This document shows positions 5,363-28,432 of a DNA stretch of 64,000 nt, in pieces. Source of the DNA: Armatimonadota bacterium (GTDB taxonomy: Bacteria; Armatimonadota; Fimbriimonadia; Fimbriimonadales; Fimbriimonadaceae); NCBI GenBank assembly GCA_018268315.1, contig JAFDWU010000007.1, forward strand, positions 1 through 64,000. The letters are read 5' to 3'. Under the pieces are notes generated by a model. That model saw nothing but the letters and a program-made list of their open reading frames with translations. It did no database searches and was not told where the DNA came from. The position numbers and the translations under genes were made by a program. Each line of letters begins with the position of its first letter. Positions within the stretch are counted from its first letter, which is position 1.

Positions 5363-5371
5363 GACTCCATG

Positions 5372-5432: not shown

Positions 5433-7766
5433 ATGCATGCCCTCAAAACCCTTGAATACGATTTGATTTTGGAGATGCTCGCTCGCCATTGCGAGACTCC
5501 AATGGGTTTTGCTGCCGCCGAGGCCCTCGAGCCTGACTTCTCCAGCCTTGGCGCATGGGACCTTCTTGCGGCAACCCAGGAGGCTTATGATGTTCTCTCC
5601 CGCGAGTCTGCGCCTGCCCTTGGCGGGGTGAAAGATGATCGACCCGCCCTTAAGAGGGCGGAGAAGGGTGGCGTCCTTAACGGACAAGAACTGGCGCGCA
5701 TTGCGAATGCGCTCGCTGCCATGCGCGGGCTAAAGGCATTGCTTGCGGACACCGAGAAGCTGCCCCAGCTTGGCGCATTGGCTATCGGGTTGCCCTCCCT
5801 GCCGCGGCTTGAGGAGGCGATCAACGATTCCATTGACGACAACGGCGAAGTCAAAGATAGCGCCTCGCCAGCTCTCGGGTCTTTGAGAGCAAAGAAGAAG
5901 AGTTCGCAAAGCCGAATCTTGGAGCGAATTCAAAGCTACGTTTCCGGCAAGGCGCGCGACCTCCTAAGCGATCCAATTTACACCGTTCGTGACGGGCGCT
6001 ATGTGCTGCCGCTGAAAGCAGAGAACAAGGGCAAGATCAAGGGCATCGTCCACGATTCCAGCGCGAGCGGGCAGACCGTCTATTTGGAGCCGGAAGACGT
6101 GCTTCAGCTCAGCAATGCGTTGCGCCAGATTGAATCTGAGGAGCGAGAGGAAGTTCAAAAGATCCTTCGGGCGCTGTCGGAGAAACTTGGTGGCGCAGCA
6201 CCGCAAATTACGGTCGGCATTGAAATGGCCGGTCGCATCGACCTCATTTTGGCCAAAGCGCGGCTTGCTTTCGAGATGGGGGGAGCGCTTCCTGTTCGGC
6301 TGCACAAGCCGCTCATAAAGATCGAGGGTGGTCGTCACCCCTTGCTTGACCGCGAGATCGCGGTGCCGCTGAATATCCAGGTAGGGGTTGGCGAGAACGT
6401 GCTGATCACCGGTCCGAACACCGGCGGCAAGACGGTTTCGATCAAAACGGTTGGGCTGTTTGTGCTGATGGCGCAAAGCGGCCTCTTCCCGCCGGCGCGA
6501 CACATCGAGATGGGCCTGTTCAGCCAGGTTTGGGCGGACATCGGGGATGAGCAGAGCCTTTCGCAGTCGCTGTCCACGTTCTCCGGGCACATCAAGAACA
6601 TCGCCGAAGCGTTGCGGATGCTGCGACCGAACGCGTTGGTGTTGCTGGACGAAGTTGGAGCGGGCACCGATCCGGCCGAAGGCGCCGCCCTGGCGCGGGC
6701 AATCCTCATCACCCTGGCGGGGAAGGGAGCGTGCGTTCTGGCCAGCACCCACTACGGCGAGTTGAAGCAGTTCGCTTACGAGACGGAAGGATTTTCCAAT
6801 GCCGCGATGGAGTTCGATACGAAGTCGCTGATGCCGACTTACAAGCTTTTGATGGGCTCGCCCGGCGCGAGTCAAGCGATGCGAATTGCCGAGCGATACG
6901 GAATTCCTGGCAAGGTGATTGAGACCGCCCGCGAGGCGCTAAGCAGCCAGCAGCAGGACATCAACCGCATGATGGAGAACCTGGAAACCGCGCAGAAGCT
7001 GGCGCGAACCGCTCAGGCGGAAGCCGATCGCCGCACGGCAGAGCTTAGGCGGATGGAAGAGCAGGCAAAGAAGAAGCTGGCGGAAGCCGACGACATCCGA
7101 TTGCGCGCGAATCAGCGGGCAAAGGAAGCTATTGAAGAAGGTTTGCGCGATCTTCGCTTGGAAGCGGCCGAGCTTTTCGACCTTCTCAAGAAGGGCCGGC
7201 AAGATCCGCGGGCACAGGACAGAGTTCGAAAGGGCCTCGCCTCAATTCAGGCCAAGGGCGAGAAACTCACCAAGGGCTTTGACGTCTCTCCCAAGCAGCG
7301 ACCCGGCTACACGCCTCCCAAGCTCGAAAAGGGGCTAAGCGTGACGATTCGCGGTTACTCGCAGCCGGGTGTGGTGCTTGAGGACCCGAAGTCAGGAAAG
7401 GTGCAGGTTCAGGTTGGCGCGGTCAAGCTCACGGTTCCCGTTGGAATGGTGGACCTTGCGAAGCCGGTTGAGCCGAAAGTGCAGAAGCAATCCAACCATT
7501 TGCGACTAAAGCACGCCCAGCACGCGGTCTCGGAGCTTCATATCCGCCATTACCGCGTCGATCAAGCGACCGGCGAGGTTGAGAAGTTCTTGGATAACGC
7601 CGTCCTGGCTGGCCTCACGACCGTGAGAATTGTTCACGGAAAAGGAGAAGGCGTGCTGAGGAACGTCGTTAAGAAAATGCTCGCTGAACATGAAGGTGTG
7701 GCGTCTCATCGCCTTGCCGATGAGACGGAAGGCGGAGATGGAGTAACGGTGGTGACCCTGAAATGA
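5433..7766 (+). CDS. mutS2: Endonuclease MutS2
   Basis: A 777-residue MutS-family ATPase of the MutS2 branch (no mismatch-recognition domain), linked to suppression of recombination or ribosome rescue in other bacteria. The core and clamp helices come first. Walker A GPNTGGKT lies near residue 327, Walker B LLDEVGAGTDPAEG near 405, and the STHYGELK switch follows. A charged coiled coil (about 505-590), a KOW-like segment and a C-terminal Smr nuclease domain (about 690-777) with HGKGEGVLR complete it. The Smr LDLRG motif is altered to LHIRHYR. The stop overlaps the start of cdd (ATGA), so the two are translationally coupled. Confidence 0.95.
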   Translation: MHALKTLEYDLILEMLARHCETPMGFAAAEALEPDFSSLGAWDLLAATQEAYDVLSRESAPALGGVKDDRPALKRAEKGGVLNGQELARIANALAAMRGLKALLADTEKLPQLGALAIGLPSLPRLEEAINDSIDDNGEVKDSASPALGSLRAKKKSSQSRILERIQSYVSGKARDLLSDPIYTVRDGRYVLPLKAENKGKIKGIVHDSSASGQTVYLEPEDVLQLSNALRQIESEEREEVQKILRALSEKLGGAAPQITVGIEMAGRIDLILAKARLAFEMGGALPVRLHKPLIKIEGGRHPLLDREIAVPLNIQVGVGENVLITGPNTGGKTVSIKTVGLFVLMAQSGLFPPARHIEMGLFSQVWADIGDEQSLSQSLSTFSGHIKNIAEALRMLRPNALVLLDEVGAGTDPAEGAALARAILITLAGKGACVLASTHYGELKQFAYETEGFSNAAMEFDTKSLMPTYKLLMGSPGASQAMRIAERYGIPGKVIETAREALSSQQQDINRMMENLETAQKLARTAQAEADRRTAELRRMEEQAKKKLAEADDIRLRANQRAKEAIEEGLRDLRLEAAELFDLLKKGRQDPRAQDRVRKGLASIQAKGEKLTKGFDVSPKQRPGYTPPKLEKGLSVTIRGYSQPGVVLEDPKSGKVQVQVGAVKLTVPVGMVDLAKPVEPKVQKQSNHLRLKHAQHAVSELHIRHYRVDQATGEVEKFLDNAVLAGLTTVRIVHGKGEGVLRNVVKKMLAEHEGVASHRLADETEGGDGVTVVTLK

Positions 7767-8152
7767 GCGAAGCGCTCCTTTTGGAGAAGGCTCAATCCGC
7801 CGCCGAGAAGGCTTACGCGCCCTACAGCAACTATCCGGTTGGCGCGTGCGTGATGACGGAATCAGGCGAGCTTTTCACCGGCTGCAATGTGGAGAACGGC
7901 TCCTACTCGGCAACGGTGTGCGCAGAGCGAGTAGCCATTTTCAAAGCGATCTCCCACGGCGCACGAGTAGTCACCGCTTTGGCTCTCTTTACTGAAAACC
8001 GCGCCCTGCCATGCGGCACCTGCCTTCAGGTTCTCTCGGAATTTGCACGAGACGGTGAAATTCTGATCTATGCGGGAAGTCCGACGGGGTCCGTGAGCTA
8101 CCGCCTCAGCGAGCTGCTGCCGCACGCTTTCCAATTCAAACCGAAACCTTAA
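7763..8152 (+). CDS. cdd: Cytidine deaminase
   Basis: A 129-residue homotetrameric-type cytidine deaminase converting cytidine or deoxycytidine to the uridine form in pyrimidine salvage. The substrate segment GCNVENGSY, the zinc and catalytic CAE (TVCAERVA) and the PCGTC motif with the other two zinc Cys are all intact. Length is standard. It starts inside the mutS2 stop codon (ATGA overlap) and has no promoter of its own in view. Confidence 0.95.
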   Translation: MSEALLLEKAQSAAEKAYAPYSNYPVGACVMTESGELFTGCNVENGSYSATVCAERVAIFKAISHGARVVTALALFTENRALPCGTCLQVLSEFARDGEILIYAGSPTGSVSYRLSELLPHAFQFKPKP

Positions 8153-8192
8153 GCGAACTTGTCCTTCATAAGGTACGGTCTAACACTACGCC

Positions 8193-8939
8193 ATGACAAA
8201 CCTGCGCATTGCCCTTCTCCTTACCCTTCTATTAGGCCTTATCGGTGGCTGCGGTGGTGGGGGATCGTCCGGCGGTGGGGGTGGCAGTCTCACCTTTCGT
8301 GCTGAGGCTACGGATGCAAACGGCAACCAAATCGACCCAACAAACATCGTTGCCAACTCGACTGCTCAGTTCGTAATCGTTGGCTACGACGGAAATGGCA
8401 ACCGCACGGTAATCCACCCAAGCGGCTGGTCGACTTCAGATATTTCTGGCGCAGCGGGTTCGCTGCAGGGCGGCGGTACCTTTACGGCAGGCGCGTCAGC
8501 GTCGGCAATGTACACGGCATCCATTACCTACGGAGCGAATGTTTATGCCGTGAACTATGAAGTTCAAGACCCGGGCGCGATTATCACGGGGAACCTTATT
8601 GATGTTTCTACCGGGCTTGGTATCGAGCAGGTGAGGGTTGACTTCTACAACAGCCTTGGCCAGAAGGTCGGTTTCTCGTATTCTGCCTTCAACGGATTCT
8701 TCCGAGGTGTTGTGCCTACCAGCGCGGCATTCTTCACCCTCGATCCCTCCACGATTCAGCTTTCGCAGTACTACCGGTCTTACGGCTACCTTAGCAAGAA
8801 TTACACGGCGCTTGACAACTCGTGCATTCCGCCAGTTCCGGGCGGACTGGCCATCGGTGTTACGGCACCCCTGCCGGGCAACGTGACGCTGATTCCTTCC
8901 AGCTATCCGCCGCCCCCGCCACCTTCAGGTTGTGGCTAG
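8193..8939 (+). CDS. Glycine-rich secreted lipoprotein
   Basis: A 248-residue protein with a clear type II signal peptide: MTNLRIALLLTLLLGLIGGC, where LIGGC is the lipobox. A GGGGSSGGGGG linker follows, then an Ig-like beta domain (to about residue 130). A second domain starting GAIITGNLIDVSTGLGIEQVRVDFYN resembles a carboxypeptidase-regulatory or CNA-B-like fold. It ends in a Pro-rich tail PPPPPPSGCG. It is probably anchored to a membrane with no enzymatic role evident. It sits alone, tail to tail with the E2 gene. Confidence 0.7.
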   Translation: MTNLRIALLLTLLLGLIGGCGGGGSSGGGGGSLTFRAEATDANGNQIDPTNIVANSTAQFVIVGYDGNGNRTVIHPSGWSTSDISGAAGSLQGGGTFTAGASASAMYTASITYGANVYAVNYEVQDPGAIITGNLIDVSTGLGIEQVRVDFYNSLGQKVGFSYSAFNGFFRGVVPTSAAFFTLDPSTIQLSQYYRSYGYLSKNYTALDNSCIPPVPGGLAIGVTAPLPGNVTLIPSSYPPPPPPSGCG

Positions 8940-8941
8940 GC

Positions 8942-10210
8942 TTACTTAAAGAAGTCGAACTTCTGCAAGCGGTCTCGCACATCGGCAAGGAACCTGCCTG
9001 CGAGCAGACCGTCCACGATTCGATGGTCGTAAGTCAGCACCAGGTGCATCATCGAGCGGATCGCAATCATATCGTTGACGATGACGGCTTCCTTGCTGAT
9101 GGCATAGGTTCCCAGAATGCCCGCCTGCGGCGCGTTGATCATCGGTGTACCAAACAGCGCTCCGTAGCCGCCAGGATTTGTGGTGGTGAAGGTTCCGCCT
9201 TGGACATCGGAAATGCCGAGCGAGTTGGAGCGTGCTCTCTTTGCGATGTCGTCGAGGTCGCGGGCGATCTCAATCAAGTTCTTCTTGTGGCAATCGCGGA
9301 TGACGGGGACGATTAAGCCTTCATCGCCCTTAGAGCCTAACGCAACGGCAACGCCGATGTGGATGCCCTTGTTCATCACGATGGTGTTATCCGGCATGAG
9401 GGCCGCGTTAAGCAGCGGGAATTCGGTGAGGGAATCTACCAGCGCCTTGATGAAGAACGGCGTGTAGGTGAGCTTGACTCCGTACTGCTCAAGGAAGGCG
9501 TCCTTGTTGCGCTCGCGGAACTCGACCATCGGCGTGACATCGACACGAGTAACGGTTGAGACTGTGGGAACCGCCGCGCTTTTCAGCATCTGCTCGGCAA
9601 TCATCTTTCGCATGCCGACGAGTTGAACAAGCTCTTGATCCGGGCCAGCTACCGTCGGGGCGGCAGGCTTGACATCCAACTTGGCGGCGGCTGCGCCGCC
9701 GTTCGGAGCGGCGAGGAAAGCTTCGACATCCTTCTTCGTAACCCGGCCACCGGCGCCGCTGCCAGCGATGGCTCTTAGCTGGGTGTCGGATAGTTGATGT
9801 TGCTTTGCGATTGCCCGTACAACCGGGGTGACCCAGTGTCGGCCCTCAAATTTGGCTGCAGGAGCAGGGGCTGCGGCAGGGGCCGGTATGCTTGCGGCGG
9901 CGGCAGCGACAGGCTCTTTGGCCTTTGCCGGTTCCTTGGCAGCTTCTTGTTTGACTGCGCCAGCCGCGCCGGACTTTTCTTCAATGATTCCCATCGCGGC
10001 GAATACATGAACGGTTCCGCCCTCTGGGATCAAAATCTGCGATAGAACGCCTGACGCGGGGGAGGGAAGCTCGGTGTTGACCTTGTCGGTCATGATCTCA
10101 ACGATCGGCTCGTCTTCCTTAACTTGCTCTCCAACCTGCTTGAGCCAGCGGGCGACGGTGCCCTCGTGAACCGATTCGCCCAATTCGGGCATCAGGATTT
10201 CCACTGCCAT
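8942..10210 (-). CDS. 2-oxo acid dehydrogenase dihydrolipoyl acyltransferase (E2)
   Basis: A 422-residue E2 core enzyme of a pyruvate, 2-oxoglutarate or branched-chain 2-oxoacid dehydrogenase. It has an N-terminal lipoyl domain with the lipoylated Lys in MTDKVNTELPSPASG and an Ala/Pro-rich linker. A peripheral-subunit-binding domain (VTPVVRAIAKQHQL...GRVTKKDVEAF) follows, then a catalytic domain ending in LTYDHRIVDG with the His/Asp pair. The lipoyl motif reads most like branched-chain or mixed E2s, but substrate cannot be fixed. E1 and E3 genes are not adjacent. I chose the ATG at 10210, since a TAAACT hexamer lies 8 bases upstream; an in-frame TTG at 10219 is less likely. Confidence 0.9.
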   Translation of the reverse strand: MAVEILMPELGESVHEGTVARWLKQVGEQVKEDEPIVEIMTDKVNTELPSPASGVLSQILIPEGGTVHVFAAMGIIEEKSGAAGAVKQEAAKEPAKAKEPVAAAAASIPAPAAAPAPAAKFEGRHWVTPVVRAIAKQHQLSDTQLRAIAGSGAGGRVTKKDVEAFLAAPNGGAAAAKLDVKPAAPTVAGPDQELVQLVGMRKMIAEQMLKSAAVPTVSTVTRVDVTPMVEFRERNKDAFLEQYGVKLTYTPFFIKALVDSLTEFPLLNAALMPDNTIVMNKGIHIGVAVALGSKGDEGLIVPVIRDCHKKNLIEIARDLDDIAKRARSNSLGISDVQGGTFTTTNPGGYGALFGTPMINAPQAGILGTYAISKEAVIVNDMIAIRSMMHLVLTYDHRIVDGLLAGRFLADVRDRLQKFDFFK

Positions 10211-10218
10211 AGGCGTCA

Positions 10219-10224
10219 AGTTTA
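10219..10224 (-). promoter_or_regulatory. -10-like TAAACT, leaderless start of E2 gene
   Basis: TAAACT on the minus strand ends 8 bases before the ATG at 10210. The same hexamer and similar spacing precede the prepilin gene at 1212. Confidence 0.45.
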
Positions 10225-10243
10225 CCGTGACAGCGAGTTCAGC

Positions 10244-11812
10244 CTATTCCAGCTCGATTGTGGCGGGCGGTTTGCTGGTGAGATCATAGAAAACGCGGTT
10301 CACGCCCTTCACTTCGTTCACGATTCGGCTGGCCGCTTCTTCCAGGAGATCGAACGGGATATTGACGGCATGGGCGGTCATCGCGTCCTCACTGGCGACG
10401 GCCCGCAGCACGATAGGCTGCTGGTAGGTGCGTTCATCACCCATTACGCCAACGCTCTTAACATCAAGCAGCGCCGCGTAGCTTTGCCAAATCTGGGTGT
10501 GCATGCCCCGCTCTCGAAGGAGACTCCGGAGTATCCAGTCGGCATCTTGGACCATCTTCACCCGCTCAGGGGTGACTTCGCCAAGGATTCTCACGCCGAG
10601 ACCCGGGCCGGGGAACGGCTCGCGGTCCACCATCTCATCCGGCAGGCCCAGCGCCCTTCCGACGGCGCGCACTTCATCTTTGAAGAGCCATCGCAGAGGC
10701 TCGATCAGCTTCATCTGCATCCAATCGGGCAGTCCGCCCACGTTGTGGTGGGTCTTGATCTTGGCGGCGGTTGCGGAGCCAGATTCGACGACGTCGGGAT
10801 AAAGCGTGCCCTGCGCCAGATATTCGCAATCCTGCAATTCCTGGGCATGGTCTTCAAAGACTCTTACAAACTGTTCGCCGATGATCTTGCGCTTCCGTTC
10901 GGGATCCGTTTCGCCCTTTAGGGCAGTGAAGAACTGGTCGCGAGCATTGAAGACTTTTAGGTTGGCTTTGAAGTGGCGGCTGAACGTGTCTTCAACCTGT
11001 TCGGCTTCGCCTTTTCGCAGCAGGCCGTGATCCACGAATACGCAGACCGCCTTATCGCCAATCGCTTTGATGAGCAGCGCCGCCATTACGGCGGAATCGA
11101 CGCCGCCGCTGACCGCGCAGAGAACCTTGCCGTTACCCACCTTCTCGCGGATGGCGGTCACCTGGTCTTCGATGAATGAGGCGCTCGTCCAATCCTGCTT
11201 CAGCCCCGCCTTTTCGAGCAAGAAGCTACCCAGTAGTTCCTTTCCGCTTAGCGTGTGGGAGACCTCGGGGTGGAATTGGACGCCAAACTGCCTGGTTGTA
11301 ACGTTATCGAACCCGGCGACCGGGCAGGTATCGGTGGTGGCGGTGGTCACGAATCCGGGAGGCGGCTGCAAAACCTGGTCTCCATGGCTCATCCACACCT
11401 GCTGATCCAGCATCTTCGACGCTAGAGAGCCGGGGGCCTGGCTGGTTAGGTGGCGCTTGCCGTATTCGGCGTCGTGCGATTGCACTACCTTGCCGCCGAG
11501 CCGTTCGGCCATGAGCTGGTGGCCGTAGCAGATTCCCAAAAGCGGAATGCCTTCAAGCAAGGAGAAATCTACGTTGGGAGCGTTCGGTTCAAGAACTGAT
11601 TTCGGTCCGCCGCTCAGGATCACGGCGTCTGGCTTAAGTTCCTTCAGGCGCTCTGCCGCATTCATCCACGGAACCATCTCCGAATACACATTGAATTCGC
11701 GCACCCTTCGCACAATGAGCTGCGAGTATTGGCCGCCGAAGTCGATGACGAGCACCGTTTGGTGCTTGGTTTTGGAATCGCTGGATGAAGGAAGGGTTTG
11801 TGAGCTAGACAA
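10244..11812 (-). CDS. guaA: GMP synthase (glutamine-hydrolysing)
   Basis: A 522-residue enzyme making GMP from XMP, ATP and glutamine. The class I glutaminase domain shows the nucleophile Cys in GICYGHQ and the His/Glu in FHPEVSHT. The ATP-pyrophosphatase domain has SGGVDSAV. The C-terminal dimerisation domain ends in TSKPPATIELE. All motifs are intact and length is normal. No ATG exists before the conserved core, so translation must start at a non-ATG codon, most simply the TTG at 11812, about 10 bases after the proline dehydrogenase stop. A GAGG about 15 bases upstream could be a weak Shine-Dalgarno. Confidence 0.97.
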   Translation of the reverse strand: MSSSQTLPSSSDSKTKHQTVLVIDFGGQYSQLIVRRVREFNVYSEMVPWMNAAERLKELKPDAVILSGGPKSVLEPNAPNVDFSLLEGIPLLGICYGHQLMAERLGGKVVQSHDAEYGKRHLTSQAPGSLASKMLDQQVWMSHGDQVLQPPPGFVTTATTDTCPVAGFDNVTTRQFGVQFHPEVSHTLSGKELLGSFLLEKAGLKQDWTSASFIEDQVTAIREKVGNGKVLCAVSGGVDSAVMAALLIKAIGDKAVCVFVDHGLLRKGEAEQVEDTFSRHFKANLKVFNARDQFFTALKGETDPERKRKIIGEQFVRVFEDHAQELQDCEYLAQGTLYPDVVESGSATAAKIKTHHNVGGLPDWMQMKLIEPLRWLFKDEVRAVGRALGLPDEMVDREPFPGPGLGVRILGEVTPERVKMVQDADWILRSLLRERGMHTQIWQSYAALLDVKSVGVMGDERTYQQPIVLRAVASEDAMTAHAVNIPFDLLEEAASRIVNEVKGVNRVFYDLTSKPPATIELE

Positions 11813-11821
11813 CGTTCTTGA

Positions 11822-12781
11822 TTAACCTCGGAACATGGATTTTAGAATGAAAAGGGTGTTGGCAGGACGCTCGGCCAAGCGACGCGAGAAATAGGGATAC
11901 CAGGAGTCTCCGAACGGGATGTAGACCCGCACGTTGTAGCCTTCGGACCGCAGGCTTTCCTGCAAATCGCGGCGTATTCCATAAAGCATTTGATATTCAA
12001 ACTTACTCTTATCGACGCGCTCCTTTTCGGCAAAGGCGTTAAGATCGCGAATAATCCCTTCGTCATGGGTTGCGATTGCCGGGTAGGTGGCTTCCTTCAG
12101 CATCAGCTTGGCTTGCTTCAGATACTGCTCGTCAACCTGGAATTTGTCTGGGAATGCGACTTCCGGCGGCTCCAAATAAGCGCCCTTGACCAGTCTCAGG
12201 CGGATGCCGGTGGGCATCAGCTTGTTTAGGTCGTCATCGGTTCGGTGAAGATACGATTGAAGCACGGTTCCGGTGTTCGGGTGGGTGGCGTGCATCTTTT
12301 GAACCAGCTTCACCGTGCGATCCGTGTAGCCGGAAGCTTCCATGTCGACCCGCACGAATCCGCCCTTTTCCGCCGCGAATTCAACCACGCTCAGATAGTT
12401 GCCGTAGGCGAAGTCGTCGGAAATATCCAGCCCGCACTGAGTGAGCTTTATCGATATGTTTAAGTTTTCCGGCTTTCCTTCACTATAAGTTGCGGGATTG
12501 CCGGGTTTGAACTCGGGCAGATCGAACATGCGGCGAACCATCGACAGGTACATCGCACTCGCTCGGTTCGCTTCTTCGGCGCTCGTGGCATTCTCGCCCA
12601 GGTAGTCCAGAGAAACAAAAAAGCCCCTTTGCAGGAGCTCGATGGTTGGGACAAGGGCTTCGTCGAGAGTATCGCCCGCGATGAACCTCTTGACGAGCGG
12701 CTTGAACGTGCGCGAGTGGCGCACCATCCGCTCTACTGGCGGAAGGGCCGAGGTCTTGAGTATGAGAGACCGGACGAGCAT
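11822..12781 (-). CDS. Proline dehydrogenase (monofunctional)
   Basis: A roughly 319-residue flavoprotein oxidising proline to delta1-pyrroline-5-carboxylate, of the short Thermus/Bacillus-type ProDH rather than the PutA fusion. The beta/alpha barrel motifs are visible: VRVDMEASGYTD, LQSYLHRTDDDL, RLRLVKGAYLEP, IATHDEG, and YEMLYGIR-like EYQMLYGIRRDLQ. The C-terminal RVYIPFGDSWYPYFSRRLAERP holds the Arg pair that binds the proline carboxylate. The ATG at 12781 is preferred; an in-frame GTG lies 12 bases upstream. P5C dehydrogenase is not nearby. guaA follows closely and may be co-transcribed. Confidence 0.93.
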   Translation of the reverse strand: MLVRSLILKTSALPPVERMVRHSRTFKPLVKRFIAGDTLDEALVPTIELLQRGFFVSLDYLGENATSAEEANRASAMYLSMVRRMFDLPEFKPGNPATYSEGKPENLNISIKLTQCGLDISDDFAYGNYLSVVEFAAEKGGFVRVDMEASGYTDRTVKLVQKMHATHPNTGTVLQSYLHRTDDDLNKLMPTGIRLRLVKGAYLEPPEVAFPDKFQVDEQYLKQAKLMLKEATYPAIATHDEGIIRDLNAFAEKERVDKSKFEYQMLYGIRRDLQESLRSEGYNVRVYIPFGDSWYPYFSRRLAERPANTLFILKSMFRG

Positions 12782-17299: not shown

Positions 17300-18301
17300 C
17301 TATCGCGTTTTTGCAAGCGCGTCCACAGGGTTCTCGCTTAGGAATCGGCCCATCTTGCGGAACTTCTCGTAACGCTCCTGTTTCAGCTTCGAGCCGCTCT
17401 TCTTCTTGAGCAGCTTAAGGTGCCTTACGATTGCTTCCTTGGCGAGACCGGCAGCTTCAATCGCATCTCGGTGCGCGCCACCCTTTGGCTCGGCGACGAT
17501 CTCATCAATCAAACCGAACTCCTTCGCCCACGCCGCCGTGAGTTTCAATGCCGTAGCCGCCTGCGCGCCCTTATCCGGCATTCGCCAAAGAATGGCGGCG
17601 CAGCCCTCAGGCGGGATGACGGAATAGATTGCATGCTCCAGCATCAGCACACTGCTTGCGCAGGCGATGCCGATTGCTCCGCCGCTTCCGCCTTCGCCGA
17701 TGACAATGGAGACGCTGGGAACCTCAAGCTCGAACATCTTCAGCATGGAAGCGGCGATGGCTTCGCTGATGCCGCGAGACTCGCTTTCCACGCTGGGGTC
17801 GGCAGCAGGGGTATCGACAAAAGAAATGAGTGGTAGGCCGAAGCGGTCCGCCATTTCCATCAGCCGAATCGCCTTGCGATAGCCTTCAGGCTTGGCCATT
17901 GCGAAGTTTCGGTATTGGCGCTCGGTGATGTTGCGGCCCTTTTGGTGGCCGATGACCATGACCGGCTCGCCGTCAAGATACGCGGGGCCGCCGATGATGG
18001 CGTGATCCGCGCCGAAGCGTCGGTCGCCTTCCAGTTCCGTGAAATTCGTGAAAATTGAGTTGATGTAGTCGAGGGTGTAGGGGCGCTGGTCGGCTCGGGC
18101 AACAAGAACCTTTTCCCACGGCCCCAGGCGGCTGTACATCACCTCGATGTAGTTATCGCGCCGGCGCTCAAATTCGGCGACGCGCTTCAGGAGGTCCTCT
18201 CGCTCAGCTTCTGGCGAAGCTTTGGCCTTTTGCTTCAGCTTCTCGATGTTCTCTTCGACTTCGATAAGGGGTCGCTCCCACTCTTTCCAAGTTTTAGCCA
18301 T
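17300..18301 (-). CDS. accA: Acetyl-CoA carboxylase carboxyltransferase alpha subunit
   Basis: A 333-residue alpha subunit of the carboxyltransferase that moves CO2 from biotin to acetyl-CoA to give malonyl-CoA for fatty-acid synthesis. It shows VLVARADQRPYTLDYI, the GGPAYLDGEPVMVIGHQKGR core, IGEGGSGGAIGIA (the oxyanion-hole glycines), and EGCAAILWR. Length and order are normal. The ATG overlaps the end of accD by 8 bases, so the two subunits are coupled. Confidence 0.97.
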   Translation of the reverse strand: MAKTWKEWERPLIEVEENIEKLKQKAKASPEAEREDLLKRVAEFERRRDNYIEVMYSRLGPWEKVLVARADQRPYTLDYINSIFTNFTELEGDRRFGADHAIIGGPAYLDGEPVMVIGHQKGRNITERQYRNFAMAKPEGYRKAIRLMEMADRFGLPLISFVDTPAADPSVESESRGISEAIAASMLKMFELEVPSVSIVIGEGGSGGAIGIACASSVLMLEHAIYSVIPPEGCAAILWRMPDKGAQAATALKLTAAWAKEFGLIDEIVAEPKGGAHRDAIEAAGLAKEAIVRHLKLLKKKSGSKLKQERYEKFRKMGRFLSENPVDALAKTR

Positions 18302-19103
18302 GCTTTACGAGCCTCCAAGAGAGCATTTTAACGAGATTGGTCAGGGTGGTCCGCATTTCGCGGCGATGGACGATCTTGTCGATCATGCCGTTCTGCAAAA
18401 CCCACTCAGCGGTTTGGAAATCGCTTGGCGCTTTGCTTACGCCCGCCTGCTTGCTCACTCGCGCACCGGCGAAGCCGATGAGCGCGCCCGGCTCGGCAAG
18501 AATTATGTCCGCGATGCTTGCGTAGCTTGCGAGCACGCCCGCCATGGTGGGGTCGGTGAAAACGGAGATATAGGGAACACCGTTCTCACGGCATCGCTGA
18601 ACTGCGGCAGTTGTCTTTGCCATCTGCATCAGGCTAAGTAGTCCCTCCTGCATGCGCGCACCACCCGAGGCGCAGAAGATGATGGCGGGGCAGTGGGCAT
18701 CTGCCGCCCTTTCAAGGGTGCGGGTGATCTTCTCACCGGCCACGCTTCCCATCGAGCCGCCCATGAAGCTGAAATCGGCGACCGCTGCGCTGACCTTCAT
18801 GCCGTCAAGCTTGGCCCAGCCGCTAATTACGGAATCGGTGGCGCCGTTCTTGGCTTGGGCAGCTTCCAGCTTTTCTTCGTAATCCGGGAACTCAAGCGGA
18901 TCGAGGCTGGAGATTTCCTTATCAAGCTCCTCGAAGGATTCGGGATCAAAGGTCGCGGTGATGCGCTGCTTGGCAAGCAGGCGGTGGTGGTGCCCACAGT
19001 GCGGGCAGACCCTAAGAAGCTGCTCGAACTCGACAGAGAAGAGAATTTTCTTGCACTGCGAGCATTGGAGAAATGCTTCCGCCTTCATCGATTTGGTCGC
19101 CAC
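18294..19103 (-). CDS. accD: Acetyl-CoA carboxylase carboxyltransferase beta subunit
   Basis: A 269-residue beta subunit partnering AccA. The N-terminal zinc ribbon CSQCKKILF...CPHCGHH has four Cys. The crotonase-like core includes DPLEFPDYEEKL, SFMGGSMGSVAGEKI, and FCASGGARMQEGLLSLMQM. The start codon is GTG at 19103, 9 bases after TATTAT. A later in-frame ATG at 19088 would shorten the protein by five residues. It begins the accD-accA operon and is divergent from the M23 peptidase gene. Confidence 0.97.
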   Translation of the reverse strand: MATKSMKAEAFLQCSQCKKILFSVEFEQLLRVCPHCGHHHRLLAKQRITATFDPESFEELDKEISSLDPLEFPDYEEKLEAAQAKNGATDSVISGWAKLDGMKVSAAVADFSFMGGSMGSVAGEKITRTLERAADAHCPAIIFCASGGARMQEGLLSLMQMAKTTAAVQRCRENGVPYISVFTDPTMAGVLASYASIADIILAEPGALIGFAGARVSKQAGVSKAPSDFQTAEWVLQNGMIDKIVHRREMRTTLTNLVKMLSWRLVKHG

Positions 19104-20528: not shown

Positions 20529-21452
20529 TCAAAGATGAAGACTCGCCGATAGGTACTGGCGACTAGAACGAAAGCCATGTCCGCCGTAAAACTTCTTGAG
20601 GGTGGTCCAGTCGATAATGCAGTTGCGCCTGCCACGCCCTTTCAATTCCATGAGCGCGGCGGCCAGCAAGGCGTCGCCTCTTTTGGCTCCGCGGAGGTGC
20701 TTCGAAATGCCAATTGGTCCCAGGCTGCACCAATTCTTTCCGAGGGCAAGATTCCATACTGCGCCGCCAATTTGCGGCCCGGTGGTCTCGTCTTGGATGA
20801 GCGCGAAGCCTTCAATTTTCGAGCCGTCTCGCAAAACCACCACGCAGGAAGGGCCGTTGGCTGCGACTTTGGCCATGACGTCGTACCTCCACCTTCCGGG
20901 AAATTCGCGGAGGAAGAAGTCGTCTAACTTGGGGATTTCTGGCGGCCTTAGAAGGCCGACTCTGATGGCAGGCGGGCCAGGAGGGGGAGTGTAATCGGCG
21001 AGGTCCTGTTCACAATCGAATATTCCGCCACCGAAGTCGAATCCTTCCGACGCCAGCCATTGCGTCAACAGGCTGCAAGTGGTGGGAGCGCCGGGCCAGA
21101 GATGCCCGCTGTCTTGGCCGAACCGCAACTGTTTAAAATCGCCGAGCGCGCTACGCGCCATCTTAAGACATTCTGAAGCTGCGGCGGGATTTCTAAAGGC
21201 AACCGCGCTCAAGTGCGCGTCATCGGGAACTGGACCCGGATACAAGCCGTAACCATTCTTCTTTACAAGGCAGAAGGCGGTAATGCGTTCGCCTTCGGTC
21301 GCAACGTAGGATGCGCTGGGTAGAAAAAGCGGGTGAAGCAGGGTGTGATCGGCAAGTAGATCCGTCTCAATCCAAAACCGGCGAGGGTAGACCGTGCGCC
21401 ACAGCCTATTGAGGTTTTCGGCATCAGATAGCACGGCTTGTCGCAGCGTCAT
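20529..21452 (-). CDS. GNAT-family acetyltransferase, probably two tandem GNAT folds
   Basis: A 307-residue protein. The first half begins LRQAVLSDAENLNRLWRTV, a typical GNAT beta1-alpha1. The second half has a clearer acetyl-CoA site: LGPIGISKHLRGAKRGDALLAAAL, followed by IDWTTLKKFYGGHGF with the conserved late Tyr. This tandem layout with a degenerate N-terminal copy is known in bacterial GNATs whose substrates are undefined. It is divergent from the large STAND-like gene at 21502. Confidence 0.7.
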   Translation of the reverse strand: MTLRQAVLSDAENLNRLWRTVYPRRFWIETDLLADHTLLHPLFLPSASYVATEGERITAFCLVKKNGYGLYPGPVPDDAHLSAVAFRNPAAASECLKMARSALGDFKQLRFGQDSGHLWPGAPTTCSLLTQWLASEGFDFGGGIFDCEQDLADYTPPPGPPAIRVGLLRPPEIPKLDDFFLREFPGRWRYDVMAKVAANGPSCVVVLRDGSKIEGFALIQDETTGPQIGGAVWNLALGKNWCSLGPIGISKHLRGAKRGDALLAAALMELKGRGRRNCIIDWTTLKKFYGGHGFRSSRQYLSASLHL

Positions 21453-21501: not shown

Positions 21502-24500
21502 GTGGAACGGCCAGCGCCAACGCCGGAAGAGAAGTTCTTTGTAACCGGAGGAACTCTCTCCCTTAACGCCAGCAGCTACATCGTCCGAAAGGCGGATAAC
21601 GACCTGTTCAACGCGCTACGTGATGGGCGGGTGTGTTACGTGCTTACGTCTCGCCAAATGGGGAAGAGTTCCATCTGCGTACGGACGATGGCCCGTTTGC
21701 AGCAAGAGAACATTCGCACTGCTTTCATCGATCTCACTCGAATTGGTGGCGGCAATGTAACCCCGGAGCAGTGGTATGCAGGATTGCTGGGCGAAGTTGG
21801 CCGCGGGCTCGGCATCCGAAATGAGCTTTTCGCGTTTTGGAAGGAGCGGGAAGCGTTGGGGCCGATGCAGCGATTCTTCGAGGCGCTGATTCAGGTTGCC
21901 TTAAAGAAGATCGAACAGCCGATCGTGCTGTTTATCGACGAAGTCGATTCCAGCAAGAGCGTTCCGTTCTCAACCGATGAGTTTTTCGCCGGCATCCGCG
22001 AGTGCTTCAACCGGCGGGTTCATGAGGAAGACCTCAAGCGACTTACGTTTTGCCTTTTGGGCGTTGCAGTTCCGTCTGATCTCATTTCCGACGCCTCGAC
22101 CACGCCATTTAACATTGGCGAGCGGATTCAGCTTTGCGACTTCACGGCAGAGGAAGCGCGGTCGCTCGCGCCAGGGCTTGGCCCGGACGGGGTGGCGATC
22201 GTTGATCGCATCGTCTACTGGACCGGGGGTCACCCGTTCCTTACTCAGAGCTTATGCGCCGCCGCCGCGGAAAGCGGAATCAAGAAGGCATCCGAAGTTG
22301 ATGAGTTAGTCAGCAGGGCCTTCTTTGGCGCGACTTCGCGCGAGACGAACATCAATCTTGCCGATGTTGGCAATCGAGTTCTCAACAGCGCTGGCGGCGG
22401 GGAATCGGTCGAGCAATACCGGGCGGACATCCTTAGCCTTTACGAAGCAATTCTCGTCGCCAACGTGAATGTTGCCGATGATGAGTCGAACCGCCTGATT
22501 TCGACGCTGAAGCTAGCGGGCTTGATAAAGCCCGACGGCAAGAACCTGACCCTCCGCAACCGAATTTATCAGAAGGTCTTCGGACCCGAGTGGATTGCCG
22601 AGAACATGCCGCAGCAGGAAGTCAAGCGGCAGCGAGCGGCTTTCCTCATGGGAATTATCCGCGCGGGTGCGGTTGGCTTGGGCCTTGGCATGATCATCGC
22701 GGCGCTTGCCCTAAAGGCGTATCAATCCGCGCAAGATGCGCATGTGGCCCAGCTTGAAGCCGAACGGCAGAAGAATCTCGCGATTGAGGCCCGCAAGGAA
22801 GCAACCATCAACGCTGCCGATGCCGATGCGCAGCGGGCGCTGGCCGAACGACGAGCGGCTCAGGTTGTTCATTCGCTAGCGATGGAGAAAGCCGCAAGCG
22901 AGCAAGCAAAGCGAGACCGGGAAAAGGCGATCATGGCAGAGCATCGGGCCGAGATGGAAGCTGCCAGGGCCAAGGTGGCAGAAAGGGAAGCCACAGTTGC
23001 CGCCGCTAAAGAGCGAGAGGCAAAACTTGCCGCCACCATCGCTGCTCAACGGGAAGCGGCCGCGCGCCACGACGCAGAGGATCTGCTTTACGCCTCAAGT
23101 GTAAGGTTAGCGGGCGAGAACATGCGGCTTGGAACCGGACGAGCTGCTTACAGCATTCTTGCCAACCAGCTTGAATCCGATAAGGAAGGGAAGCGACGCG
23201 GCTGGGAGTGGGACTACCTGTGGGGCCAACTGCAGGGAGGCAAGCGCTTCGATACCGGCACCAGCGCCCTTTCGATGCAAGTGACGCCAAAGAATGAAAT
23301 CGCCATCCTGGATGGTGACCTCGTGCTGCGCAAATATAAGCCTGAGATGGCAGGGTTGATCGGCACGATCAATTTGAATCAGGATGGCCAGGGTCTCTAT
23401 GGGGCGATTTCGAACGACGGCAAGATGGTCGCTCGAACAACTTCTAAGGGTGAGGTTGAAGTCTATGACGTCGATACAATGAAGCCCCTTAAGAAGCTCC
23501 AGGTTTCCACTGACCCGGTCGATTTTGTTCGCTTCCAGCCCGTTCAACATCTGCTCTACGCCTCTTCAGGTCAGGAGACGCGGCTTTATGACACGTCGAG
23601 TTGGAGCTATCTGGGCAGCTCATCTGTCACCAACGCGGCCAAGCTCTCGCTTGCGGAAGCTGGGGCCATCCTTGCCGATGGCCGAGCCGTGCTTCCAAAC
23701 TTCGACACGGGAGCGTCCTTCCTTATTCTTCCGGGTCTGCTGCGAGCCGACCCATTTAAGCAGGCGGGAAGCTATCGTCATCTCATCACCATCTCCGCGA
23801 TTCAATCGGCGCATTCGGGCGATACGTTCGCTTCAGGGGATCTCTACGGCACCATCCTCGTAATGGATGCTTCAAAGGCCGCGCCGAAGATTTCGCCTTT
23901 GAACCAAGGCAGCCGCGTTCTCAGTCTTGCCTTTTCCCACAAGGACGACCTCATCGCAAGCGGTGGAATCGATGGCTCTGTAACTGTTTGGAACGCGCTG
24001 AACGGGAAGCGTGTGGCCGCCTATCGGGGCCGCCAAAGTGTTGTCGCCATCACCTTTTCGGCCGACGATCGCAAGGTCTACTTCGGAACGACCGACGGTA
24101 AATCAAGCTTCTTTGATGTTCAGAATTCGCAAAGCCACTGGGAAACCGATGCCCTAGCCGCGAACTTTAATTCTCTGGCGGTGACACCCGATAGCTCAAC
24201 CATCGTTATCGCCCAAGCGCAGCCTTCCTTCTGCCTGAGGTACGTGGATTCGCGTTCGCGTCAACTCAAGGGGCTAACGTTCTTGCCCGCTGCTCCAACG
24301 GCCATTACCATTGCGCCCAAGACGGGACGCGTGTACGTTGGCTACGCCGGCGCTGGGTTTATCGATATTGTCAATAAGGACCGCAAGCTGGCAGGGCGAA
24401 TTCTTCTTCCCGATCACCGATTCCGTTTCCCGATTACCATCTCACCTGACGAGCGCTATCTTGTAGTAAGCGACGGCACATCCGGGCTTTCGCAGGGGAT

Positions 24501-26367
24501 ATTCAACGGCAAGCCGCTCATCATCGACCTTCGAACGCAAGGGGTTGCGCGCCAGCTATCTGGTTGGCACTCTACGGTTATTGCCGCTTCATTTTCTGCG
24601 GATGGCAGAGAACTCTTTGTCGGCGGGGATGACGGCGTCGTCCGTGCCTATGAGACGGGTTCGTGGACGCTGGATAACACAGTGCCAAAGCTCGAGACCT
24701 CAGGGGCTAATCAAGTGCTATCGCTGGCTACATCCAAGGATGGCAACTGGTTGGCAACATCGAATCAAGTCGGCGCAATTCGGCTATACAACTTGAAGAC
24801 CAAGGCAAGCCTGACGCTTCAGGGGCACTCTGGAGAAGTTGACGCCGTCAAGTTCATGCCCGACTCCAAGACGGTGGTGGCGGGAGGTGTCGACGGCACC
24901 GTGCGATTCTGGAATCTACCAACGGGCCGCGAAGTTCTCGTCTTCGATGTCGAACACAAAATCTATTCGCTCGCAGTCTCCCCCAGTGGTGAGAATGTGC
25001 TCGCCCTCACCGACGATGGCCGCCTGAGCACCTGGAATGCGCCTCGGCCGGTTGTTGCAGCTACTCGAGCGAACGATGGCGATACCTCGAGCTTTGAGGG
25101 GCAGCTTGGCGGCAAGCAGCTTTCCGCGATTGATTTGGTAGCCAAGGCCAAAGAAAGGGCGATTAAGAGCGGCAAACGCCTGCTCATCTCTTTTGTCAGC
25201 CCGGATGATCGTTACTCCCGACGATTCATTGCCCTTATGAAGTCGCCAGAGTTTGGGGCGCGGATCGCTCGCAATTACGAAGTGGTGCTGATCAATGATG
25301 AGCTGTCCTTGACGCGTCCGGGCGTGCCGGGCAGCTACGCTCTGCTTGGAGCATATGGCGGAAACTCGTTCCCGTTCTGGGTGATCGTGGACAAGTGGGG
25401 CAACCGCTTGGTCGATTCATACGCGGATCTGGCTTCCGGGCATTTAGGGCAGAACATCGGAGTACCGGTGGCCGATTGGGAGCGTGACTACTTCATGCGG
25501 GTCATCGCGAAGTACGCATCCTTCAGCAAGGAGGATTTGAATGCGATGTCCCGATATCTGTCAGACCAGAACATGGATTACGATGCGGTGGCCCGCTCGG
25601 AAGCCTCGTATCAAGGGTTTGGCAACCGGGTTGATAAGCTAGTCAGCGAGGGGCGATTGGCGGACGCCCTGAAGATCATCGACGCTGGCGTAAAGCTGGG
25701 TGTAAGGCAGTACGGCTTGCGCAACTTAAGAGCCCAGTACCGAGCGCTCCTTGGAGATTACGCGGGAGCTCTTGAGGATTTGGATTACATGAGTTCGTCC
25801 GTGGGTCAGCGCGATACGAACACTCTAAGCAATCTCCTTGTGATGCAGATTGCGGTCGGCGAAAATGCAAAGGCGGTCGATACCGGCGTGAGAATCTCAA
25901 GGTCAATTGAGCAGCCCAATTTGCGCAACTACCTAATTGGCAATACCTTCCGGCGAATAGCCTGGGCGACTAAGCCGACCGACCAAGCGAACCTGGGGCA
26001 ATATCTCCTACAGGCTAACCACCAGGCCGACCCGTCGTCCTTGCGAACAAAGGAGGCTTACGCTTTCTATGAGTTCCGTCTTGGCGCCAAAGAACTTGCG
26101 TGGCAGCTTGTCAGCCAGGTCCTGGCAAGCCCGGGGTTGGGGTATGACCGGTTCCTGAGTACGCACACCCACTATTTGGCAGCGCTCATCGCCTACACGC
26201 TCCATCGGCCGGAAGCTCCGCAACTGTTCGGCGAGGCGGAGCACCTCTTCGACCTTCAAAACAGCCAGTTCATTCGAGGAACGGTTGCGGCTTGGCCCTA
26301 TGCGGATCAGATAGAGATTGAATTGTTCCGGCAGGAGGCGCGCAGGACTCTCAATGTCTCAAAATGA
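21502..26367 (+). CDS. AAA_35 NTPase-transmembrane-coiled coil-WD40-thioredoxin-fold protein
   Basis: A 1621-residue multidomain protein. Residues 1-370 are an AAA-like (AAA_35-type) NTPase with Walker A SRQMGKSS (50-57), Walker B IVLFIDEVDSS (141-151) and a WTGGHPFLTQSL motif. A transmembrane helix spans about 380-403. A long Ala/Glu/Lys coiled coil runs about 410-525, ending near RRGWEWDYLW. WD40-type repeats cover about 560-1190 (for example VTVWNAL, VRFWNLPTGRE). A thioredoxin-like domain (about 1208-1310) lacks the CxxC pair, reading SPDDRYSRRF. The C-terminal 300 residues are helical and TPR-like. The layout resembles nSTAND signalling or conflict proteins. It overlaps the cyclase-TIR-AAA_35 gene by 14 bases. 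Function is unknown. Confidence 0.85.
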   Translation: MERPAPTPEEKFFVTGGTLSLNASSYIVRKADNDLFNALRDGRVCYVLTSRQMGKSSICVRTMARLQQENIRTAFIDLTRIGGGNVTPEQWYAGLLGEVGRGLGIRNELFAFWKEREALGPMQRFFEALIQVALKKIEQPIVLFIDEVDSSKSVPFSTDEFFAGIRECFNRRVHEEDLKRLTFCLLGVAVPSDLISDASTTPFNIGERIQLCDFTAEEARSLAPGLGPDGVAIVDRIVYWTGGHPFLTQSLCAAAAESGIKKASEVDELVSRAFFGATSRETNINLADVGNRVLNSAGGGESVEQYRADILSLYEAILVANVNVADDESNRLISTLKLAGLIKPDGKNLTLRNRIYQKVFGPEWIAENMPQQEVKRQRAAFLMGIIRAGAVGLGLGMIIAALALKAYQSAQDAHVAQLEAERQKNLAIEARKEATINAADADAQRALAERRAAQVVHSLAMEKAASEQAKRDREKAIMAEHRAEMEAARAKVAEREATVAAAKEREAKLAATIAAQREAAARHDAEDLLYASSVRLAGENMRLGTGRAAYSILANQLESDKEGKRRGWEWDYLWGQLQGGKRFDTGTSALSMQVTPKNEIAILDGDLVLRKYKPEMAGLIGTINLNQDGQGLYGAISNDGKMVARTTSKGEVEVYDVDTMKPLKKLQVSTDPVDFVRFQPVQHLLYASSGQETRLYDTSSWSYLGSSSVTNAAKLSLAEAGAILADGRAVLPNFDTGASFLILPGLLRADPFKQAGSYRHLITISAIQSAHSGDTFASGDLYGTILVMDASKAAPKISPLNQGSRVLSLAFSHKDDLIASGGIDGSVTVWNALNGKRVAAYRGRQSVVAITFSADDRKVYFGTTDGKSSFFDVQNSQSHWETDALAANFNSLAVTPDSSTIVIAQAQPSFCLRYVDSRSRQLKGLTFLPAAPTAITIAPKTGRVYVGYAGAGFIDIVNKDRKLAGRILLPDHRFRFPITISPDERYLVVSDGTSGLSQGIFNGKPLIIDLRTQGVARQLSGWHSTVIAASFSADGRELFVGGDDGVVRAYETGSWTLDNTVPKLETSGANQVLSLATSKDGNWLATSNQVGAIRLYNLKTKASLTLQGHSGEVDAVKFMPDSKTVVAGGVDGTVRFWNLPTGREVLVFDVEHKIYSLAVSPSGENVLALTDDGRLSTWNAPRPVVAATRANDGDTSSFEGQLGGKQLSAIDLVAKAKERAIKSGKRLLISFVSPDDRYSRRFIALMKSPEFGARIARNYEVVLINDELSLTRPGVPGSYALLGAYGGNSFPFWVIVDKWGNRLVDSYADLASGHLGQNIGVPVADWERDYFMRVIAKYASFSKEDLNAMSRYLSDQNMDYDAVARSEASYQGFGNRVDKLVSEGRLADALKIIDAGVKLGVRQYGLRNLRAQYRALLGDYAGALEDLDYMSSSVGQRDTNTLSNLLVMQIAVGENAKAVDTGVRISRSIEQPNLRNYLIGNTFRRIAWATKPTDQANLGQYLLQANHQADPSSLRTKEAYAFYEFRLGAKELAWQLVSQVLASPGLGYDRFLSTHTHYLAALIAYTLHRPEAPQLFGEAEHLFDLQNSQFIRGTVAAWPYADQIEIELFRQEARRTLNVSK

Positions 26368-28432
26368 GCCAAGGCATTCTTTAATGACGAATCCGGGGGT
26401 CTTATCAAAATCTGAGGTTGCGCACGTGTTGTTTCTCGACATCGTGGGCTATTCCTTGCGATCGACCACCGAGCAATCGAGACTCCTTGAAAGGCTCAAC
26501 GAGGCGGTAAACGGCTCAAAGACTTTCCAGGCTGCCAAGCTGGCTGACCGGGTCCTGCCGCTGGCCACCGGCGACGGCATGGCGCTCGTCTTCTTCCAGG
26601 AAGTCGCCCATCCGGCTGAGTGCGCCATTGAAATCGTGGCGAATATTGGAAAGGAACTTCCGGTTCGCATGGGTATTCACAGCGGCCTTATCCAGCATCA
26701 GGCGGATATCGCGGGTAACGCAAATGTTGCCGGAGAAGGCATCAATACCGCTCAGCGGGTGATGGATTTCGGAGAAGCCGGTCATGTGCTGCTAACGCGC
26801 ACTTATGCCGATTGGCTTGCGCAGCTTGACCAGTGGCACGGCAAGATCGTTGATTTTGGCGAAGGCGTGGCGAAGCACGGGCAGCGGATAAAGGTTTGTG
26901 GGCTGGCCGCCCCCGGCGTTCGCAATGATGCGCCGGTTGCTCTGGGCGGCAAGACCAGCGAATCAGGCACGCCGGGTCGAAAGCGGGTTGTTATCCTGTA
27001 CAAGCGAAACGCGGAGCCAGATTCGACCTTGCTGAACACGATCCACGACCACTTGGAGCGGCACGGCGAAGACGTGTTTATTGACCGCCACTTAAAGATC
27101 GGCGCAGACTGGGCAGCAAGCATTGAGAAGAAAATTCGCGATGCGGATGTAGTGATTGCGTTGCTTTCCGATTCCTCAGTGCAAAGCGAAATGCTGGAAT
27201 TCGAGCTTGAAACGGTCGCCGATGAGCGGGCGCGACGCGGCAAGCCCCTTCTGCTTCCAATTTTCATTGGGCAAGGGAAGGAGCTGAAGGGCAATATCGG
27301 CTCGATCGTAAACCCGCTTAATAGGGCGGAATGGTCAGGCGAGCAGGATACCGGTCAGCTCTTGACCGCCATTTCAAGTTCAATCACAGAGCCGATGGCT
27401 CCCCAAGAGGAGGAGCTTCATCTTGAGCCCGCCGGGGGAGCGGTGCCTGTGGATTCACCCTTCTATATCGAACGTGCCACCGATGCGGAAGCCTTCGCTG
27501 CCGTCCGCGCCAACGAAAGCATCATCTTGATCAAGGGCCCGCGTCAGATGGGGAAGACCTCTCTGATCTCGCGCCTCGCGCTCTTCACTCGGGAGCAGGG
27601 TTGGCGCACGGCGATGACCGATTTCCAGAAGATCAGCTTTGGCGTTGTGCAGACGCCCGATCTCTTCTACAAGATGCTTGCCGCCACCCTCGCCAAGCAG
27701 TTGCGCTTTAAGTACGACTTCGACGAGGAGTGGATGGACGTCTTCGGTCCGAATCTCAATATGGACAACTTTATGCGGTCCTTATTGGAGGAATCGGAAA
27801 CACCGCTTGTTTGGTTCATGGATGAGGCGGATAAGAGTTTTGGGCTGCCGTTCGCGAGCGATTTCTTTGGTCTTGTCCGCTCGTGGCACAACTCCCGGGC
27901 AACCGAGCCGTTTGGACCTTGGGGCAGGTTCACCATCGTTATCGGCTACGCGACCGAGGCTCACCTGTTCATTCAAGACATGAACCAGTCGCCATTCAAT
28001 GTGGGGCGGCACATAGAGCTGGATTCCTTTAACTACGAGCAAACCATGGCTTTGAACCAGAAATACGGCTCATTGCTGAATCCGGAGCAGATCCACCAGC
28101 TTCTCCAGTTGATTTCGGGGCAGCCGTTCCTTACCCGGCGCGCGTTTGATGTCCTCGCCAGGCATAAGTTCACTTTCGCCGAGCTGATTCAGCAGGCTGC
28201 CAGTGATGAAGGGCCATTTGGTGATCATCTTAAGCGAATTCTGATCAGCGTGACCCAGATACCGGAGGTGACGCAGGCTATTCGATCTTCGGCCTCGAAT
28301 TTAGAGCTAGCGGATTCCGATGCGTCGCAAAGATTGGTTGCGGCAGGCGTTCTCCAGAAGCAAGGGCGCACCCTGGCTTTCAGGAGCCCGCTTTACGAGC
28401 GCTACCTTAAGGCGCACTTCCAGGCTAGTTAG
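26354..28432 (+). CDS. Class III nucleotide cyclase-TIR-AAA_35 fusion
   Basis: A 692-residue fusion. Residues 20-190 are a class III cyclase homology domain: metal Asp29 (LFLDIVGYS) and Asp74 (ATGDGMAL), transition-state Asn131 and Arg135 (GINTAQR). The two substrate-selecting positions are Leu70 and Asn124, which match neither adenylyl (Lys/Asp) nor guanylyl (Glu/Cys) cyclases. Residues 210-340 are a TIR-type domain (RVVILYKRNA..., VFIDRHLKIGADW, VVIALLSDSSVQSEMLEFELE with candidate Glu). Residues 365-690 are an AAA_35 NTPase with GPRQMGKTS (395-403) and FMDEAD (488-493). The ATG at 26354 has AGGA upstream; an ATG at 26384 with AAGG is possible. It is co-expressed with the upstream gene. Confidence 0.87.
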   Translation: MSQNEPRHSLMTNPGVLSKSEVAHVLFLDIVGYSLRSTTEQSRLLERLNEAVNGSKTFQAAKLADRVLPLATGDGMALVFFQEVAHPAECAIEIVANIGKELPVRMGIHSGLIQHQADIAGNANVAGEGINTAQRVMDFGEAGHVLLTRTYADWLAQLDQWHGKIVDFGEGVAKHGQRIKVCGLAAPGVRNDAPVALGGKTSESGTPGRKRVVILYKRNAEPDSTLLNTIHDHLERHGEDVFIDRHLKIGADWAASIEKKIRDADVVIALLSDSSVQSEMLEFELETVADERARRGKPLLLPIFIGQGKELKGNIGSIVNPLNRAEWSGEQDTGQLLTAISSSITEPMAPQEEELHLEPAGGAVPVDSPFYIERATDAEAFAAVRANESIILIKGPRQMGKTSLISRLALFTREQGWRTAMTDFQKISFGVVQTPDLFYKMLAATLAKQLRFKYDFDEEWMDVFGPNLNMDNFMRSLLEESETPLVWFMDEADKSFGLPFASDFFGLVRSWHNSRATEPFGPWGRFTIVIGYATEAHLFIQDMNQSPFNVGRHIELDSFNYEQTMALNQKYGSLLNPEQIHQLLQLISGQPFLTRRAFDVLARHKFTFAELIQQAASDEGPFGDHLKRILISVTQIPEVTQAIRSSASNLELADSDASQRLVAAGVLQKQGRTLAFRSPLYERYLKAHFQAS

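Follow-up and report, generated by a model that had tools for sequence, protein, structure and literature searches.

Two adjoining AAA_35 NTPase genes of an Armatimonadota bacterium as a candidate receptor-executor pair

Two AAA_35 genes at one locus

We analyzed two overlapping genes in a 64,000-nucleotide stretch of contig JAFDWU010000007.1 (assembly GCA_018268315.1) from an Armatimonadota bacterium; this whole stretch is called the window below. Each gene encodes an AAA_35 (PF14516) nucleoside triphosphatase (NTPase) domain, which in gene 1, the receptor-type partner, is followed by a transmembrane helix and a long tail, and in gene 2, the executor-type partner, is preceded by a class III nucleotidyl cyclase and a TIR domain (Table 1). 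The 2.8 Mb genome has only these two AAA_35 domains, and since they lie side by side, their adjacency is not due to chance.

Both open reading frames (ORFs) are intact and have the positions given in an earlier, sequence-only reading of this DNA. Every domain named in that reading was borne out by Pfam, by PDB profile searches and by AF2 models, and the near-identical P-loops that it had pointed out, RQMGKSS and RQMGKTS, were seen as well. The best start of gene 2 is the ATG at 26354, with AGGA about eight bases upstream; a longer in-frame alternative begins with the TTG at 26318. A promoter and terminator scan gave sites no commoner than in shuffled sequences.

Table 1. Features of the gene pair (window coordinates)
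Feature	Position	Strand	Details
Gene 1, receptor-type partner	21502..26367	+	1621 amino acids, GTG start; AAA_35, transmembrane helix, coiled coil, two WD40 propellers, thioredoxin-like domain, TPR
Gene 1 AAA_35 NTPase	21550..22581	+	Residues 17-360; PF14516 E 2.4e-26; Walker A RQMGKSS (residue 51), Walker B LFIDEVD
Gene 1 single transmembrane helix	22645..22713	+	Residues ~382-404; N-terminal side predicted inside by charge, preceded by KRQR
Gene 1 probable coiled-coil stalk	22714..23226	+	171 residues, 26% Ala, 12% Glu, 11% Arg, no Pro; based on composition
Gene 1 two WD40 propellers of the seven-bladed type	23251..25047	+	Residues ~584-878 and ~879-1182; WD40 Pfam E 1.6e-26, AF2 model
Gene 1 thioredoxin-like domain without CxxC	25123..25551	+	Residues 1208-1350; based on nearest relatives
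Gene 1 weak TPR-like segment	25645..25809	+	TPR_9 (PF13371), residues 1382-1436, E 7e-5, under curated cut-off
Overlap of genes 1 and 2	26354..26367	+	14 bases
Gene 2, executor-type partner	26354..28432	+	692 amino acids, ATG start; class III cyclase, TIR, AAA_35
Gene 2 class III nucleotidyl cyclase	26399..26914	+	Metal Asp29/Asp74, transition-state Asn131/Arg135, base-specifying positions Leu70/Asn124
Gene 2 TIR	26978..27388	+	TIR_2 E 6.6e-16; catalytic-position Glu284
Gene 2 AAA_35 NTPase	27437..28411	+	PF14516 E 7.8e-76; Walker A RQMGKTS (residue 397), Walker B WFMDEAD

The PF14516 match scores 92.8 bits in gene 1 and 255.5 bits in gene 2, against a curated cut-off of 27, and the fold of the gene 2 domain matches archaeal STAND-like ATPases (2qen, Z 21.1; 2fna, Z 20.2). 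A Walker A/B core, a STAND-like fold and fused effector and sensor domains place these NTPases in the STAND class, an assignment made by features and not by a formal STAND clade tree.

In the AF2 model of gene 1 the second propeller matches seven-bladed WD40 structures (Z 37), and both propellers together match tandem propellers over about 550 residues. The least well supported domains of this protein are the thioredoxin-like domain, for which no direct Pfam match was found in residues 1208-1350 and whose nearest relatives are stand-alone Thioredoxin_7 proteins, and the TPR tail with its one sub-threshold match; the model of this region has a confidence below 50 and is not interpretable. The cyclase of gene 2 matches PF00211 only at E 0.003, the PDB profile of Rv1900c at E 9e-13 and solved folds at Z 20. 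The Rv1900c cyclase domain (1ybt/1ybu), the closest solved cyclase by sequence and among the top fold matches, is fused to an alpha/beta-hydrolase, whereas the window cyclase is fused to TIR-AAA_35.

Conservation and divergence of AAA_35 pairs

A search of 101 related genomes and of one GTDB genome per species yielded 120 loci. We regarded as executor-type the 115 different ORFs with a C-terminal AAA_35 domain, and as their partner an ORF with an N-terminal AAA_35 domain within 1.5 kb. The pair described in the sequence-only reading recurs: a partner was found for 83 of the 115 executor genes, many of the remainder lying near contig ends. Fifty of the pairs are tandems with the executor first (most commonly overlapping by 8 bases), 12 are tandems with the receptor first, as in the window, 19 are convergent and two are divergent. 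As the adjacency survives rearrangement of both gene order and strand, it is strong evidence for a joint function. Where an Armatimonadota genome has exactly two AAA_35 genes, the matches listed show them adjacent in 17 genomes and apart in one, three cases being undecidable.

The pairs span at least seven phyla, and their hosts include Armatimonadota, Acidobacteriota, Verrucomicrobiota, Cyanobacteria, Chloroflexota, Desulfonema, KSB1 and Thioploca. The patchy distribution that the earlier reading had put up for testing is seen within the phylum itself, where 46 of 205 Armatimonadota genomes have AAA_35 above the cut-off. The domain was not found in any of 14 well-known control genomes, a possible reason for the lack of studies on it. 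Independent annotations of plasmids contain the same adjoining genes, labelled 'hypothetical', 'TIR protein' or 'AAA-like domain-containing protein', and no description of the AAA_35 pair was found in the literature searched, which was limited to open-licence papers. The window pair proves to belong to a large bacterial family that is modular and apparently unnamed.

Some loci have more than two members. At L051 (genome G011) and L109 two receptor genes follow or face one executor, suggesting several sensors with one output, while at L034 (G100, 3645-11986) a receptor lies between two executors, one of the BTAD type on the opposite strand and one of the cyclase-TIR type downstream.

Among the 79 complete pairs, the nearest neighbor of an executor AAA_35 domain was another executor in 79 of 79 cases, and that of a receptor AAA_35 domain another receptor in 77 of 78. 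Nearly all domains of both types keep intact Walker A and B motifs. The distance matrices of the partners are correlated (Mantel r 0.867 for 79 pairs, reached in 0 of 2000 permutations; 0.831 for Armatimonadota alone), and cognate partners fitted better than swapped ones in ten of 11 within-genome comparisons, several by tiny margins. Judged by these sequence comparisons, the receptor and executor AAA_35 domains are old, separate groups which diverge in step. The pair thus consists of linked and co-diverging STAND NTPases, one bearing a sensor and the other an executor, and the conserved adjacency and matched divergence agree with the earlier suggestion that the two NTPase domains are partners.

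It is very improbable that the genes share no function and are just unrelated neighbors or duplicates of recent origin. A nearby partner is indeed missing in some relatives, but adjacency holds across several arrangements and phyla, the groups are old and separate, and their divergence is matched; we rejected this explanation on the adjacency and the matched divergence.

Exchangeable heads and tails

The (TIR-)AAA_35 base of the executors bears a cyclase, a Ser/Thr kinase, a CHAT domain, a winged helix-BTAD module, a trypsin-like domain or no additional head. TIR alone was found in 28 executors, cyclase-TIR in 18, CHAT-TIR in 11 and kinase-TIR in six, the last three with further variants; cyclase-kinase-TIR (two cases) and trypsin-like-TIR (one case, labelled by reading of one sequence that has no Pfam match) are rarer. 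Winged helix-BTAD heads occur in 22 of 112 executors, mostly without TIR, and one large branch carries them. At least 26 head changes were counted on the executor tree, a quick tree with several long branches, and its strongly supported branches force at least four changes each for cyclase, kinase and CHAT.

To the sequence-only reading, the combination of domains had looked like an undescribed defense or stress signaling module. The combination stands; the description proved too narrow, since cyclase-TIR shares the base with at least five other head types and one large branch bears BTAD.

Receptor tails vary too, with Pfam matches to WD40, TPR, PEGA/CarboxypepD_reg, PDZ and CHAT; PEGA, CarboxypepD_reg and PDZ are families common outside the cytoplasm. 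In 72 of 77 receptors AAA_35 leads straight into a transmembrane helix, and positive charge prevails on its N-terminal side in 58 cases versus five, so that by sequence the receptor tail is probably extracytoplasmic. Any transmembrane-like stretch was found in only seven of 79 executors.

The active sites of the cyclase and TIR domains, for which the earlier reading had considered enzyme roles, retain the residues at the catalytic positions and are likely functional. In gene 2 the TIR glutamate lies six residues past a conserved serine (S278-EMLEF-E284). It is retained in 81 of 88 TIR domains of the relatives, including all 24 cyclase-TIR proteins, which suggests an active enzyme. The seven domains lacking it (L103, L104, L106, L107, L108, L091 and L047; Gln in six, Ala in one) belong mostly to one Verrucomicrobiota branch and are perhaps scaffold TIRs. 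Of 28 cyclases, 25 retain the one metal-binding Asp, 26 the other and 27 the transition-state Arg, while the position of Asn131 has another residue, mostly Glu, in one subclade. The canonical purine-specifying Lys/Asp are absent from the gene 2 cyclase and replaced by Leu70/Asn124, and we therefore make no substrate prediction. The Rv1900c cyclase is reportedly active although it lacks the canonical substrate-defining lysine, which makes activity of the gene 2 cyclase plausible. Pycsar cyclases recognize the base through yet other residues (PMC11224242).

Possible mode of action and genomic setting

We consider it fairly probable that the pair is a two-part STAND-type (NLR-like) switch, in which a transmembrane receptor and a soluble executor act by induced proximity. 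Gene 1 would be the receptor, with a cytoplasmic AAA_35 domain leading through the membrane helix and the stalk to a sensor of two propellers, a thioredoxin-like domain and TPR, probably outside the cytoplasm. Gene 2 would be the soluble executor, its AAA_35 domain forming the receiving half behind the TIR and cyclase. A signal at the tail of gene 1 may alter the nucleotide state of its AAA_35 domain, contact between the two AAA_35 domains would cluster gene 2, and clustering would switch on the head enzymes, the cyclase by dimerization and the TIR by multimerization followed by NAD cleavage. The putative outputs, a cyclic nucleotide together with an NAD-derived product or loss of NAD, could lead to a stress or growth-arrest response. 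We infer this order of events. The head types seen here are enzymes and regulators which respond to self-association; this and the RPP1- and STAND-like structural matches make induced proximity the simplest mechanism. The top Foldseek match of the gene 2 model is the plant TIR-NLR RPP1 (E 4.3e-12, 549 columns).

Several observations weigh against this interpretation. The RPP1 match has a root-mean-square deviation of 20 A, the domains fitting one by one and not as a rigid body. The Mantel correlation partly reflects shared organismal descent, and the head types come from mechanical ORF calls and local hidden Markov models, with Pfam run on only about 20. The partner is absent despite full flanks in some relatives (L036, L078, L084, L093 and L095), and in G031 the executor and the receptor are about 1.1 Mb apart (G031:C1:1994447 and 3084406). 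The separated genes of G031 are also a natural case in which to test action in trans.

We more tentatively propose, as something that may well fall short, a widespread and unnamed class of bacterial transmembrane 'paired NLRs' with cassette-like heads and tails, in which the window executor would emit two nucleotide signals from one chain, one cyclic and one derived from NAD. If so, bacteria have NLR-like pairs that are split into sensor and executor across the membrane, and a common NTPase base on which cyclase, kinase, protease and TIR or DNA-binding outputs are mounted; the pairs would also be a simple system for testing cross-talk between two STAND NTPases, a question shared with plant paired NLRs.

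Plant TIR-NLRs such as RPP1 and paired sensor/executor NLRs likewise have a TIR followed by a STAND-class NTPase and sensing and executing NTPases encoded side by side. They differ in having NB-ARC and leucine-rich repeats, whereas here we find AAA_35, a membrane-anchored sensor, WD40 or other tails and an additional enzymatic head before the TIR; the likeness in pairing is an analogy only. Pycsar (PycC and PycTIR) also joins a class III cyclase with a TIR, but in the window both are in one chain and AAA_35 NTPases are present. The earlier reading had set the pair apart from Pycsar, and in agreement with this a cyclic-nucleotide-binding domain is absent from the pair; we rejected Pycsar membership, this family being absent among the matches listed for both proteins. 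The MoxR-vWA ternary and STAND conflict systems known from multicellular bacteria share TIR, cyclic nucleotide cyclase, kinase and caspase-like effectors, an NTPase core and beta-propellers (PMC7159879, PMC8195603), but the core in the window consists of two different AAA_35 NTPases with the sensor tail after a transmembrane helix, and neither protein nor the scanned flanking genes matched MoxR or vWA. This effector set is also described in papers on bacterial conflict systems, where it is combined with other cores (PMC7159879, PMC8195603, PMC10907252). We regard the pair as a variant of STAND-type signaling.

The same effectors bring in anti-phage abortive infection, in which the receptor would sense infection, the TIR destroy NAD and the cyclase make an alarm signal. 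Bacterial conflict systems already described draw on TIR, CHAT and kinase domains (PMC7159879, PMC8195603), the catalytic TIR glutamate is retained, the distribution is patchy, and some cyanobacterial pairs are plasmid-borne, with restriction genes or a NACHT gene next to them. Against it stands the genomic setting. The defense-island setting raised in the earlier reading is not seen: the flanks in the window are core genes (accAD, CN-hydrolase and AddA-like genes), and no recurrent defense family was found by PADLOC and Pfam among 127 neighbors of related pairs, the PADLOC families most often matched being generic kinase models (three members). A search of 50,697 phage records for the pair found nothing, and viral contigs gave one match, a lone TIR-AAA_35 homolog (L165, an IMG/VR contig). 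Neither protein matched a PADLOC model strongly; the best match of gene 2 is to a TIR-bearing model (E 5e-4), and that of gene 1 (E 1e-12) is restricted to two propeller stretches of a 1972-position model. The large branch with winged helix-BTAD heads resembling transcription regulators makes defense one option and not the default. A defense role of the pair is possible; abortive infection as such we regard as unlikely.

The BTAD branch also recalls SARP/AfsR-type STAND regulators (winged helix-BTAD-NTPase), since such heads sit on the same AAA_35 base in Armatimonadota, although the window protein bears cyclase-TIR, has no DNA-binding head and leaves the sensor to a separate gene. An alternative reading is that of an ordinary regulator with a sensory or developmental role in the state of the envelope or in stress, whose heads would be regulatory outputs (a cyclic AMP-type signal, phosphorylation or transcription) and whose TIR would be mainly a scaffold. 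The SARP/AfsR-like arrangement of the 22 executors, the housekeeping gene setting, the glutamate loss in seven TIRs and the presence of two cyclic-nucleotide-binding proteins in the same genome, encoded on another contig than the pair and potential readers of a cyclic nucleotide, are consistent with such a role. Glutamate retention in the other 81 TIRs and in all cyclase-TIR forms argues for an active enzyme instead, and patchy distribution with repeated head exchange is more typical of conflict systems. We see the ordinary regulator as a real but somewhat doubtful alternative to the two-part switch.

The viral contig L165 is possibly a misassigned bacterial contig. On a plasmid of Nostoc sp. 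TCL26-01 (L169) two consecutive AAA-like pairs have a NACHT gene, a WD40 gene and insertion sequence elements as neighbors. The CN-hydrolase/AddA block beside the window pair is likewise adjacent in the majority of relatives in the same family, which also tells against a defense role. A GNAT-like gene upstream of the window pair (20529-21452) has a counterpart flanking a BTAD-TIR pair in G007 (L046, 4185-5129), so that pairs with different heads possibly share a site; we did not use this as evidence for an in-place head swap at one chromosomal site, as no second case turned up in the loci that we compared. In the window (17300-19103) and at L082 (12228-14052) alike, a cyclase-TIR pair has accA/accD no more than a few kb away, on opposite sides, which may be chance. 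Elsewhere the window's genome encodes a second related cyclase domain (G000:C5:185446-186003, in a 437-amino-acid frame) and a second TIR domain (G000:C3:72690-73106, in a 522-amino-acid frame).

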